DNA of 64,000 bases from Methylopila sp. 73B (GTDB lineage Bacteria > Pseudomonadota > Alphaproteobacteria > Rhizobiales > Methylopilaceae): the NCBI RefSeq assembly GCF_000526315.1, contig NZ_JAFV01000001.1, positions 2,356,001 to 2,420,000 on the forward strand. Direction: 5' to 3'. A model generated the notes under the pieces. It ran no database searches and was not told the DNA's origin. It worked only from the letters and a program-made list of their open reading frames with translations. The position numbers and the translations under genes were made by a program. Below, one piece after another: positions 14,295 to 36,689 of this stretch (position 1 is the first letter of the stretch; each line of letters begins with the position of its first letter).

Positions 14295-14295
14295 T

Positions 14296-14491
14296 CCCTC
14301 CTCAAGCGAAGCTTGGGGAGGGTGGCCCTTCGCAAAGCGAAGGGTCGGGTGGGGCCGCCGACGTCGCCCTTGCGACGTCGGTCCTTTTAAGCGCGACGAT
14401 TGGAACAGGGCTTGGCGAAGCGTCTCATCCGGCGAGGCACCCCACCCGACCTCGCTGACGCGAGGCCACCCTCCCCTGTCCCAGGGGAGGG
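14296..14491. repeat. 196-base inverted-repeat element between ribF and ileS
   Basis: The 428-base gap 14295-14722 contains no convincing gene. Its first half is a fold-back element: GGGGAGGGTGGCC...GGGTGGGG on the left pairs with CCCCACCC...GGCCACCCTCCCC on the right. Each end has its own terminal hairpin (CCCTCCTCAAGC/GCTTGGGGAGGG and CCCCTGTCCCAGGGG). An internal hairpin CCGACGTCGC/GCGACGTCGG is at about 14357-14381. The remainder of the gap up to ileS shows no feature I can name. This family differs in sequence from the GTCATCCCGG repeats. Confidence 0.7.
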
Positions 14492-14722
14492 ATCGCTGGC
14501 CCCTTCCGGGCGCCCTTCACTTGTCAGCAAGCCCGACCCTGCTACAAGGCGCGCGACCTCTTCATCGTTGAGGCTTGCATCCATGCGCCTGCGTCCGTCT
14601 CCGACGTTCCGAATTACCGGCCCGGCCTCCGCCTGAGCCGCGCGGTTCGCGCGCCCAGGCGCCGGGCCGGGAGACGACACGCCGCCTGACCGACGCCTCA
14701 CGAGACACCCGGACGCGCCCCA

Positions 14723-17700
14723 ATGCCCTCCGACGTTACGCCCGCCGCCCGCGACTACTCCGAAACCCTGTTCCTGCCGCAGACCGACTTCCCCATGCGC
14801 GCCGGGCTCCCCCAGAAGGAGCCGGAGCTGCTGAAGCGCTGGGAGCGCATCGGGCTCTACGACAGGCTGCGCGCGTCGAGCGCGGGGCGGAAGAAGTACG
14901 TCCTGCACGACGGCCCGCCCTACGCCAACGGCCACCTGCACATCGGCCACGCGCTCAACAAGATCCTCAAGGACGTCGTGGTGCGCACCCGCCAGATGGC
15001 GGGGTTCGACTCGAACTACGTGCCGGGATGGGACTGCCACGGCCTGCCGATCGAGTGGAAGGTCGAGGAGGGCTACCGCGCCAAGGGCCTGAACAAGGAC
15101 GAGGTGCCGGTCATCGAGTTCCGCAAGGAGTGCCGGGAGTACGCGCAGAACTGGATCGGGATCCAGTCCGCCGAGTTCCAGCGCCTCGGCGTCACCGGCG
15201 ACTGGAAGGACCCCTACACCACCATGAAGTTCTCGGCCGAGGCGCAGATCGCCCGCGAGATCATGACCTTCGCGCGGACCGGCCAGCTCTACCGCGGGTC
15301 CAAGCCGGTGATGTGGTCTGTGGTCGAGAGGACCGCGCTCGCCGAGGCCGAGATCGAATACCAAGAGTTCACGAGCGACACGGTGTTCGTGGCGTTTCCG
15401 CTCAGCGAGCGTCATCCCGGCCGCAGCGAAGCGGAGAGCCGGGATCGCGCGTCGGAGGCGGCGCCCGGTTCTGCGGACGGTCCCGGCTCTGCGCCTTCGG
15501 CTTCGGCCGGGACGACGCTGGAGAACGCCTCCGTCGTCATCTGGACGACCACGCCCTGGACCCTGCCCGGCAACCGCGCCGTGGCGTACTCCCGGAAGAT
15601 CGCTTACGGCCTCTATGAGGTGACCGAAGCGCCCGAGGACAACTGGGCCAAGGTCGGCGCGCGCTATCTGCTGGCGGACGCGCTCGCGGAAGGCGTGTTC
15701 AAGGCCGCCAAGGTGAGCGGGTTCAAAAAGGTCCGTGACGTCGCGGCCGACGAGCTCGAGGGCCTCGTCGCCGCGCATCCGCTCAAAGACCACGGCTACG
15801 ACTTCGCCGTGCCCCTGCTTCCCGGCGACCACGTCACCGATGACGCCGGCACGGGCTTCGTGCACACGGCGCCCGGCCACGGCCGCGAGGACTTTGAGCT
15901 CTGGATGGATCATCGCTTCGATCTGGAGACGCGCGGGATCAGCTCGAAGATCCCCTACACGGTCGACGCCGAGGGCTTCCTCACCAAGGACGCGCCGGGC
16001 TTCACCGGCCGCTCGGTCATCACCCACAGGGGCGACAAGGGCGACGCCAACCAGGCGGTGATCGACGCGCTGGTCGCGGGCGGGCGGCTCGTCGCGCGCG
16101 GAAAGCTGCGGCACCAGTACCCGCACTCCTGGCGCTCCAAGAAGCCGGTGATCTTCCGCAACACGCCGCAGTGGTTCATCCACATGGACCGCGACATCGC
16201 CGGCCCCGCGGACACGCTGCGCTCGCGGGCGCTGGCCGCGATCGAGGCGACCGCGTTCTATCCCCCCCAGGGCAAGAACCGCCTGCGCGGCATGATCGAG
16301 GGCCGGCCGGACTGGGTGGTCTCGCGCCAGCGCGCCTGGGGCGTTCCGATCACCGTGTTCGTGCACAAGGAGACCGGGGAGATCCTGCAGGACCCCCGCG
16401 TCGACGCCCGCATCGCGGAGGCCTTCGAGGCCGAGGGCGCCGACGCCTGGTTCGCCGACGACGGATCGCGCTTCCTCGGCAACGATTACGCCCTGTCGGA
16501 CTACGACAAGGTGCCGGACATCCTCGACGTCTGGTTCGATTCCGGCTCGACCCACGCCTATGTGCTGGACCGTCGGCCCGACCTCAGCCCGAAGCGCGTC
16601 GTCGACGGCGGCGAGGACCAAGTGCTCTACCTCGAGGGCTCGGACCAGCACCGCGGCTGGTTCCATTCCTCGCTGCTGGAAAGCTGCGGCACGCGTGGCC
16701 GCGCGCCCTACGACGCGCTGCTGACGCACGGCTTCGTGCTCGACGAGCAGGGCCGCAAGATGTCGAAGTCGCTCGGCAACATCGTCGCGCCGCAGAAGAT
16801 CATCGAACAGTCCGGCGCGGACATCCTGCGCCTCTGGGTCGTGCTGTCGGACTACGCCGACGACCTCCGCATCGGCCAGGAGATCCTGAAGACCGCGACT
16901 GACGCCTACCGCAAGCTGCGCAACACGCTGCGCTGGATGCTCGGCGCGCTGGCGCATTTCCGGGACGGCGACGTCGTCGCGGTCGAGGATATGCCGGAGC
17001 TGGAACGCTACGTGCTGCACCGGCTGGCGGAGGTCGACACAGAGGTGGAGGCCGCCTACGACGCCTTCGACTTCAAGCGCGGCTTCGCGAGCCTGTTCAC
17101 CTTCCTGACCAACGACCTCTCGGCGTTCTACTTCGACGTCCGCAAGGACGCGCTCTACTGCGACCCGGCGTCGTCGGTGACCCGCCGCGCCTGCCTCACC
17201 GTGATCGACCGGGTGTTCCGCACGCTGGTGACGCGGCTCGCGCCGCTGCTGCCGTTCACGGCGGAGGAGACTTGGCTGTCGCGCTTCCCCAGCGAGGACG
17301 GCTCCGTCCATCTCGAACTCTACGCGCTGGCCGACAACGCCTGGCGCGACGACGATCTCGCCGCAAAGTGGGAAAACGTCCGCAAGGTCCGCCGCGTGGT
17401 GACGGGGGCGCTCGAGATCGAGCGCGCCGCGAAGCGCATCGGCTCGTCGCTCGAGGCGGCGCCGGTCGTGCATGTGACCGATCCGGAACTCGCCCTGGCG
17501 CTGAAGGGCGTCGACCTCGCCGAGGTCGCGATCACCAGCGGCATCAAGGTCGTCTCCGACGAGGCGCCGGCAGATGCGTTCCGTCTTGCGGAGGTGGCCG
17601 GCGTCGCCGTGGTGGTGGGCCGCGCGGAAGGCCGGAAATGCGCCCGCTCGTGGAAGGTGACGCCCGACGTCGGCGCGGACGCCGACTACCCCGACGTCAC

Positions 17701-17758
17701 CCCCCGCGACGCCCAGGCGCTGCGCGAATGGGACGCCGCCCGGAGCCGCGCGGCGTGA
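14723..17758 (+). CDS. ileS: Isoleucyl-tRNA synthetase (1011 aa), with repeat-derived insertion
   Basis: This class Ia synthetase charges tRNA-Ile. The HIGH motif appears in [16 protein letters not shown] and the KMSKS loop in [11 protein letters not shown]. The editing domain has [14 protein letters not shown] Pro/Ser/Ala/Glu-rich stretch at about residues 230-266 is encoded by an in-frame palindromic repeat (15411-15518), just before the editing motif. At the C-terminus the usual four-Cys zinc site is largely absent: GRKCARSWK has one Cys where CxxC is expected and the distal pair reads VTPRD. Length is at the long end because of the insertion. It likely remains functional because it is the only ileS here and all catalytic motifs are intact. 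Confidence 0.96.
15411..15518. repeat. GTCATCCCGG-family palindromic repeat inside the ileS coding sequence
   Basis: The 108 bases run from GTCATCCCGGCCG to CGGCCGGGACGAC. They contain the family's two arms: a left hairpin closing on GCCGGGATCGC and a right half TCCCGGCTCTGCG followed by a CTTCGG turn. The layout matches the intergenic copy 36588-36689 nearly arm for arm. The length is exactly 36 codons and ileS stays open, giving a hydrophilic peptide with no homologue that I know in IleRS. Confidence 0.8.
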
Positions 17759-17768
17759 GGCGCAGGGC

Positions 17769-18026
17769 GTCATCCCGGCCGGCCGCAGGCCGAGCCGGGA
17801 TCGTTCTCCCAGGCGGGCGCTGGTCTTCACCTCTCCCCGGCGGGGAGAGGTCGGCGGGCGTGAGCGCGCCGGGTGAGGGGGCTTGTTCCCTCTCAGATGA
17901 ATTCAGAGCCCCCTCGCCCGCTCGGCTTCGCCGATCGACCTCTCCCCGGCGGGGAGAGGTAAAAGCCCGCACTTCTCGTCCAGCGATCCCGGCTCTGCGC
18001 GGCTGCGCCGCTCCGGCCGGGATGAC
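17769..18026. repeat. GTCATCCCGG-family repeat split by a second element
   Basis: The left arm (GTCATCCCGGCCGGCCGCAGGCCGAGCCGGGATCG, positions 17769-17803) and the right arm (CGATCCCGGCTCTGCGCGGCTGCGCCGC...GATGAC, about 17983-18026) are those of one family member. In the other copies they lie about 30 bases apart; here about 180 bases of another repeat sit between them. The right end lies 15 bases before the lspA ATG, so it also forms the lspA leader. The whole 283-base gap 17759-18041 is repeat DNA. Confidence 0.75.
17830..17960. repeat. Nested CTCTCCCCGGCGGGGAGAG repeat element
   Basis: A perfect palindrome CCTCTCCCCGGCGGGGAGAGG occurs at both ends (17830-17850 and 17939-17959). Between them GGGTGAGGGGGCT pairs with AGCCCCCTCGCCC, so the 131-base element folds into one long arm. 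It interrupts the GTCATCCCGG-family repeat. Similar fold-back units of this kind are common in Rhizobiales intergenic DNA as I recall. Confidence 0.75.
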
Positions 18027-36587: not shown

Positions 36588-36689
36588 GTCATCCCGGACG
36601 GCCGAAGGCCGAGCCGGGATCGTGATCCGGGGAGCGGCCGTTCAGAACGATCCCGGCTCCGCGCGGCTGCGCCGCTTCGCCGGGATGAC
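36588..36689. repeat. Intact GTCATCCCGG-family double-hairpin repeat (reference copy)
   Basis: GTCATCCCGGACGGCCGAAGG leads into a left hairpin closing on GCCGGGATCG. A spacer follows, then CGATCCCGGCTCCGCGCGGCTGCGCCGCTTCG leads into GCCGGGATGAC. The outer ends GTCATCCCGG and CCGGGATGAC are exact inverted copies, so the 102-base unit forms a cruciform or two hairpins. It fills the gap between convergent purD and the HAD gene and could serve as a bidirectional stop. Confidence 0.85.

Follow-up and report, generated by a model that had tools for sequence, protein, structure and literature searches.

How does a DNA palindrome that looks like an intergenic repeat come to lie inside the reading frame of an essential aminoacyl-tRNA synthetase, and is its position there a repeated landing place or the trace of one old insertion? 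The question is raised by ileS in the window, the 64,000-nucleotide stretch of DNA analyzed here. A first-pass annotation had placed a 108-base repeat in frame within this gene at 15411-15518; its length and frame stood, whereas its coordinates were one base off. The corrected features are as follows.

14723-17758, plus strand: ileS, isoleucyl-tRNA synthetase, 1011 amino acids, TIGR00392 match
15410-15517, plus strand: CGTC-tagged head-to-head palindrome pair, in frame, 36 codons (residues 230-265)
15411-15447, plus strand: left arm of the ileS element, GTCATCCCGG...CCGGGATCG
15448-15480, plus strand: spacer separating both arms of the element
15481-15517, plus strand: right arm of the element, TCCCGG...CCGGGACGACG, inverted relative to the left arm
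15539-15559, plus strand: IWTTTPW motif, downstream of the insert

Against the TIGR00392 equivalog model, the ileS product scored 794 bits (curated cut-off, 621.4), and the match spans the insert as one stretch, from residue 23 to residue 912. One IleRS copy was found in this Hyphomicrobiales genome, hereafter G000 (1 match at E<=1e-50). The element, 108 bases with its CGTC tags, begins on a codon boundary in phase 0 and encodes 36 residues, mostly polar or small, upstream of the IWTTTPW motif, which we take to be the start of the CP1 editing domain. As RNA, this strand folds at -90.1 kcal/mol (z -6.45), and 0 of 200 shuffled sequences folded as low. No target-site duplication was seen by eye at the insert. 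Alignment with the ileS genes of relatives brought out close relatives without the segment, among them G011, whose ileS DNA is 93.5% identical outside the loop; the insert in G000 is therefore not a chance feature. The earlier proposal, in which a palindromic repeat of a dispersed family turned into a segment of an essential protein, is supported.

The ileS insert is a member of a dispersed palindromic repeat family, here called family A. The 108-mer gave at least 69 BLAST matches in G000, 40 of 179 first-look candidates having been scored, and the pattern TCCCGGN{8,36}CCGGGAYGAC gave 92 matches, grouped by script into 54 sites, against 0 for the backwards control. The family is thus abundant elsewhere in the genome, where its absence would have counted against the first-pass annotation. 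The 37-base left arm alone recurs at other places in G000, once at 100% and several times at 97% identity. Two intergenic sites lie in the window.

17769-18026, no strand assigned: intergenic family-A pair between ileS and lspA
36588-36689, no strand assigned: intergenic family-A copy

The latter had been named as kin of the ileS insert and is confirmed as a member of the same family. At 17769-18026, CTCTCCCC...GGGGAGAG palindromes sit in the family-A spacer as nested repeats (by eye). The gap between ribF and ileS, at 14295-14500 of the window, is filled by a long palindromic pair of the CCTCCCC/GGGGAGG type (by eye).

Intragenic copies were sought as sites with the same best coding frame in the 240-base flanks on both sides plus a stop-free frame across, using a simple codon score whose training set of seven stretches included ileS itself. 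The same best frame on both sides was found at 8 of the 54 family-A sites in G000, 3 of these 8 being stop-free in any phase. L185 and L186, considered as intragenic copies, both proved on reading to be gaps between genes, which leaves ileS as the single site of the 54 read as intragenic. Among family-A sites of other genomes, none of a chosen sample of 20, two of them with one arm only, was intragenic.

Family A resembles the CGTC-REPs, which, in the available sections of Di Nocera and others 2013 (PMC3733652), are mainly alphaproteobacterial and lack a dedicated transposase. Common to both, as those sections describe them, are the CGTC tag, AT as first stem bases, an 8-bp stem, and head-to-head dimers. 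The superfamily tag is unpaired CGTC, TGTC, or CCTC, and 15410-15517 opens with CGTC and closes with GACG; the superfamily stem has 8-9 bp and starts with complementary A-T, and the left arm pairs ATCCCGGC / GCCGGGAT. Head-to-head dimers predominate in G000 as well, 37 of the 54 sites being in -+ order under the strict pattern. Other family-A dimers provide no independent test of the stem, because the pattern with which they were picked largely demands those stem bases. Family A differs from the CGTC-REPs, as presented there, in its apparently longer stem loops and in a tail of CG(T/C), not CCA. In the left arm, 16 bases separate the 8-bp stems, against a loop of 4-5 bases in the superfamily; in many family-A copies the bases at this place pair into an inner stem closed by a short loop (by eye), and the same sections name exceptions in loop length, such as Bradyrhizobium CGTC-1. 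The tail of the superfamily is short and unpaired and in most cases fits CCA, while the bases after GGGAT in family A are mostly CG(T/C) (by eye). Since the source says "most" of the CCA tail in the part available, we call the element CGTC-type without assigning it to any of families 1-4. A mobilizing enzyme is presumed; a Y1 (RAYT-type, Y1_Tnp, PF01797) transposase was rejected as the mobilizer in G000, the only genome searched for it, where 0 matches were found, while a control search with PF01797 gave matches in 5 of 14 genomes.

When solved IleRS1 chains are aligned by phmmer, the alignments are interrupted at the insert, and 6-7 residues are left there, as in alleles without a repeat (215->222 in S. 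aureus, 217->224 in Priestia, 220->228 in H. pylori). An AF2 model built from the window protein and 30 of 80 named loci of the order (mean pLDDT 82.9), with IleRS structures as its best Foldseek matches, places strands at 216-228 and 269-275 and residues 232-264 between them at pLDDT <50. The model suggests that the insert occupies a hairpin loop ahead of the editing domain and is predicted to be disordered, although low pLDDT is weak proof of disorder, since no aligned sequence contains the insert and six other segments, among them 194-215, also score <50.

All 13 sampled genomes of the genus (G000-G012) have ileS, and the loop occurs in several states: family A in three (G000, G005, and G002), a second repeat, family B, in four (G009, G012, G008, and G010), a short empty turn in five (G011, G004, G006, G003, and G007), and an extra loop in one (G001). 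Family B is unrelated to A, being a CCCTCCCC...GGGGAGGG repeat of the form CCCTCCCCC...GGGGGAGGGG with peptides such as SPSPLAGEGRGGGW...PTPNPSPQGGGE; in the ileS genes of G008 and G010 it is known from two contig ends each, G010 being in short pieces. The residues of G005 and G002 that resemble those of G000 are likewise encoded by repeat DNA, in line with the origin that had been proposed. The empty turn reads DGLDG, EALDG, DALEG, KDGALDG, or AALGG and differs little between the two halves of the genus. Inserts of both families end 0-2 bases from one and the same codon, that aligned to a Leu in the x-A-L-D-G turn (by eye), G010 having Trp in place of this Leu. The extra loop of G001, KDVVIGRTETFPDAKRGETSARTRRSIDPELES, fits neither family and is perhaps a decayed or a third insert. 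With 96-97% identity in rpoB, G000, G009, and G011 nevertheless carry A, B, and the empty turn, respectively. The inserts of G000, G005, G009, and G012 fold at -78.6 to -105.8 kcal/mol, that of G002 is weaker (-64.9 vs -90.1 kcal/mol in G000), and the extra loop of G001 folds weakly (-31.9 kcal/mol). The draft assemblies of G008 (C32) and G010 (C4) end within the ileS palindrome, and one such G010 contig end looks like what we take to be sequencing-adapter sequence.

Beyond the genus, 397 genomes from 141 genera of the order were searched with patterns combining a family end with IWTTTP. These matched three genomes for A and four for B, all of this genus, and controls gave 0; neither repeat was found at the IleRS loop in the 384 sampled genomes outside the genus, at the sensitivity of patterns that demand ATC for Ile plus these arm letters. 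The loop was extracted from 76 of the 80 named loci (L059, L113, L116, and L124 having no motif), and none was like either repeat by eye. Loop length varies widely across the named loci, so that a change in length appears to be tolerated across the order. In low-GC Alphaproteobacteria, 41 of 385 genomes matched; 30 loci were read, of which none had such an insert and none was recognizable as Rickettsia.

The frame test on family-B sites flagged a hydantoinase/oxoprolinase gene of hydantoinase A/B type (PF01968, PF02538) in G012. It likewise occurs with and without a repeat, so this pattern is not special to ileS. One site in the gene holds family B in frame in G012, G007, and G008 and is empty in G010, G001, G002, and G004; at E<=1e-60, the gene has matches in 7 of the 13 genomes and none in the other 6. 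The G012 copy (L274, G012:C1:473904-474046) reads N in part, the G008 repeat spans two contig ends, and the G007 gene matches in three pieces, its frame looking broken elsewhere and its insert being open. Intragenic copies of family B numbered 2 of 41 among the matches listed for G012, one of them ileS, added as a positive control, and 0 among the best matches listed for G000 (23, two given partly), G009 (8), and G007 (16, the oxoprolinase copy lying outside these). L356 of G007, considered as a further intragenic copy, proved on reading to be a gap between two genes, presumably acyltransferase-like and CysZ-like.

The four loop states require 6 changes on the rpoB, ileS, flank, and combined trees, against a mean of 6.9 for shuffled labels, and 28-31% of shuffles require 6 or fewer, 13 tips giving little power. 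No trace of descent was therefore detected at this power, the states fitting the trees no better than shuffled labels do. Exchange between species is likely part of this poor fit. The genes of G005 tell conflicting histories: by rpoB it groups with G004 (92.6% vs 90.5% to G000), whereas all 11 windows taken from ribF and ileS place it nearer to G000, G009, and G011 than to G004, which makes recombination between species the likely source of its ribF-ileS region. In pepM, its similarity to G000 does not exceed that of G002. No import is apparent in the flanking sequences of G002 and G009. As for the copies themselves, the three family-A inserts in ileS are mutually nearest among 56 dimers (82-85%), with one intergenic copy tying at 82.2% for G005. 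The family-B inserts of G009 and G008 are mutually nearest at 82.4%, vs at most 74.6% to 20 sampled copies plus G012, and in a second comparison at 86%, vs 82% for the next copies among the matches listed. Given this mutual closeness of the ileS copies, there may have been as few as one independent insertion per family, with old inheritance or exchange accounting for the other copies; the safe minimum is two insertion events, one for each family.

We assign a probability of roughly 0.82 to the reading that a REP dimer inserted at a tolerated loop of ileS, where insertion, loss, and probably exchange keep the state turning over. The dimer, of CGTC type, belongs to the short palindromic repeats that do not move autonomously, and would have inserted between two ileS codons at the tip of the beta-hairpin loop ahead of the CP1 editing domain. 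As its 108 bases (3 x 36) keep an open frame and encode polar residues, the enzyme would remain whole with a floppy 36-residue loop. The loop would be a tolerated landing place, taken by two unrelated repeat families and empty in other species, its state changing quickly through insertion, loss, and probably recombination between species. The insertion itself as judged against the relatives, its frame and repeat identity, its place in the loop, the two families, the empty sites, and the poor agreement with the trees are observed, whereas neutrality for the enzyme, disorder of the loop, and the sequence of events are presumed. Inserted copies would decay towards ordinary coding sequence, and the weakened pairing in G002 fits such decay. 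The simplest reading is that the insertion, at a point tolerant of it, is neutral or nearly so, because 5 of 13 species have the short turn, the G002 hairpin is weaker, and a gene absent from 6 genomes is affected alike. A role of the insert in pausing or editing is possible but unsupported.

The two families with very stable folds at one point, together with the near absence of inserts from genes at the other sites tested, could mean that the hairpin itself is selected, a strong mRNA palindrome, of whatever family, or a disordered linker ahead of the editing domain serving to slow the ribosome or alter IleRS editing. We regard this as improbable, given the five species with a short turn, the folds of only -64.9 and -31.9 kcal/mol in G002 and G001, and the same phenomenon in the hydantoinase/oxoprolinase gene, which is without a match at E<=1e-60 in 6 of the 13 genomes. 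It is barely credible that the repeat is not truly in ileS, through an error of assembly or annotation, or that ileS is a pseudogene: the breaks of G008 and G010 at the palindrome, and the resemblance of a G010 end to an adapter, speak for this, but the frame is open through the insert in G000, G005, G002, G009, and G012, the assemblies of G000 (2 contigs) and G012 (1 contig) are near-complete, and IleS occurs once per genome apart from matches split at the loop.

The number of insertions is where another history deserves weight. Family A may have inserted once near the root of the genus and then been lost by in-frame deletions or replaced by B, in which case the loop would not be a repeated target for A. 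The three family-A copies have the same length (106 bases without the outer tag bases), frame, and position, they have loop sub-types in common (by eye) and are mutual best among the 56 dimers but for one tie, and the G005 copy may have arrived with the recombined ribF-ileS tract. We nevertheless hold this history to be possible but rather unlikely: the empty turn, alike in both halves of the genus, looks ancestral, so that several in-frame deletions would be needed, the presence of family B at that point calls for at least one insertion of its own, and G000, G009, and G011 show three states despite their closeness in rpoB. Insertion with turnover at a tolerated loop thus remains our preferred reading. 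More tentatively, and on balance unlikely, a few loop-coding points in conserved genes of the genus, such as the IleRS hairpin and the oxoprolinase loop, could be true insertion targets to which unrelated palindromic families return repeatedly; an enzyme essential for translation would then carry loops encoded by repeats and exchangeable as cassettes.

Events of this kind are already known from intragenic CGTC-REPs (PMC3733652) and from a palindrome in Rickettsia ileS (PMC3767692), as far as the available sections of both papers go. The former records intragenic inserts of 20-30 amino acids, tRNA synthetases with intragenic REPs in X. oryzae, E. litoralis, and S. alaskensis, and, in recB of two Xanthomonas species, different REPs at about one site. 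The first-pass annotation knew of no palindrome-derived peptide in this synthetase, which is contradicted by Table 1 of the R. japonica genome paper (PMC3767692), where a 144-base RPE-7 lies in the isoleucyl-tRNA synthetase RJP_0691; the sections available also report RPE-7 from R. conorii, R. africae, and R. felis, with none detected as a typical RPE in R. prowazekii or R. typhi. RPE-4, RPE-6, and RPE-7, as described there, resemble the ileS element in being inserted in genes (68-192 bases), in an ATGAC motif, and in solvent-exposed positions. RPE-7 and family A occur in the same enzyme in different orders, a likeness at the level of the gene, and by analogy the ileS element may work like an RPE, although we do not class it as one. 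Palindromes also lie within protein genes in the mitochondria of Nematomorpha (PMC6649704), but these are, in the part of that article consulted, perfect, maintained repeats of animal mitochondria, whereas those of ileS and family B are imperfect members of dispersed families.

In the open-licence literature, we saw no description of an essential gene that, within one genus, has two unrelated repeat families as well as empty alleles at a single point. The Rickettsia paper, in the sections seen, asks whether RPE sites are hotspots or one diverged insertion and leaves this open; species with empty, A, and B alleles of one essential gene make the question testable at one position. The findings also show dispersed repeats giving rise to new protein loops in bacteria other than Rickettsia, and repeat-encoded loops interrupting some draft assemblies. 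Compared with the intragenic CGTC-REPs as presented in PMC3733652, one essential gene has here been followed through 13 species of one genus, and what is new is that, within that genus, a single point shows two unrelated families and also empty alleles.
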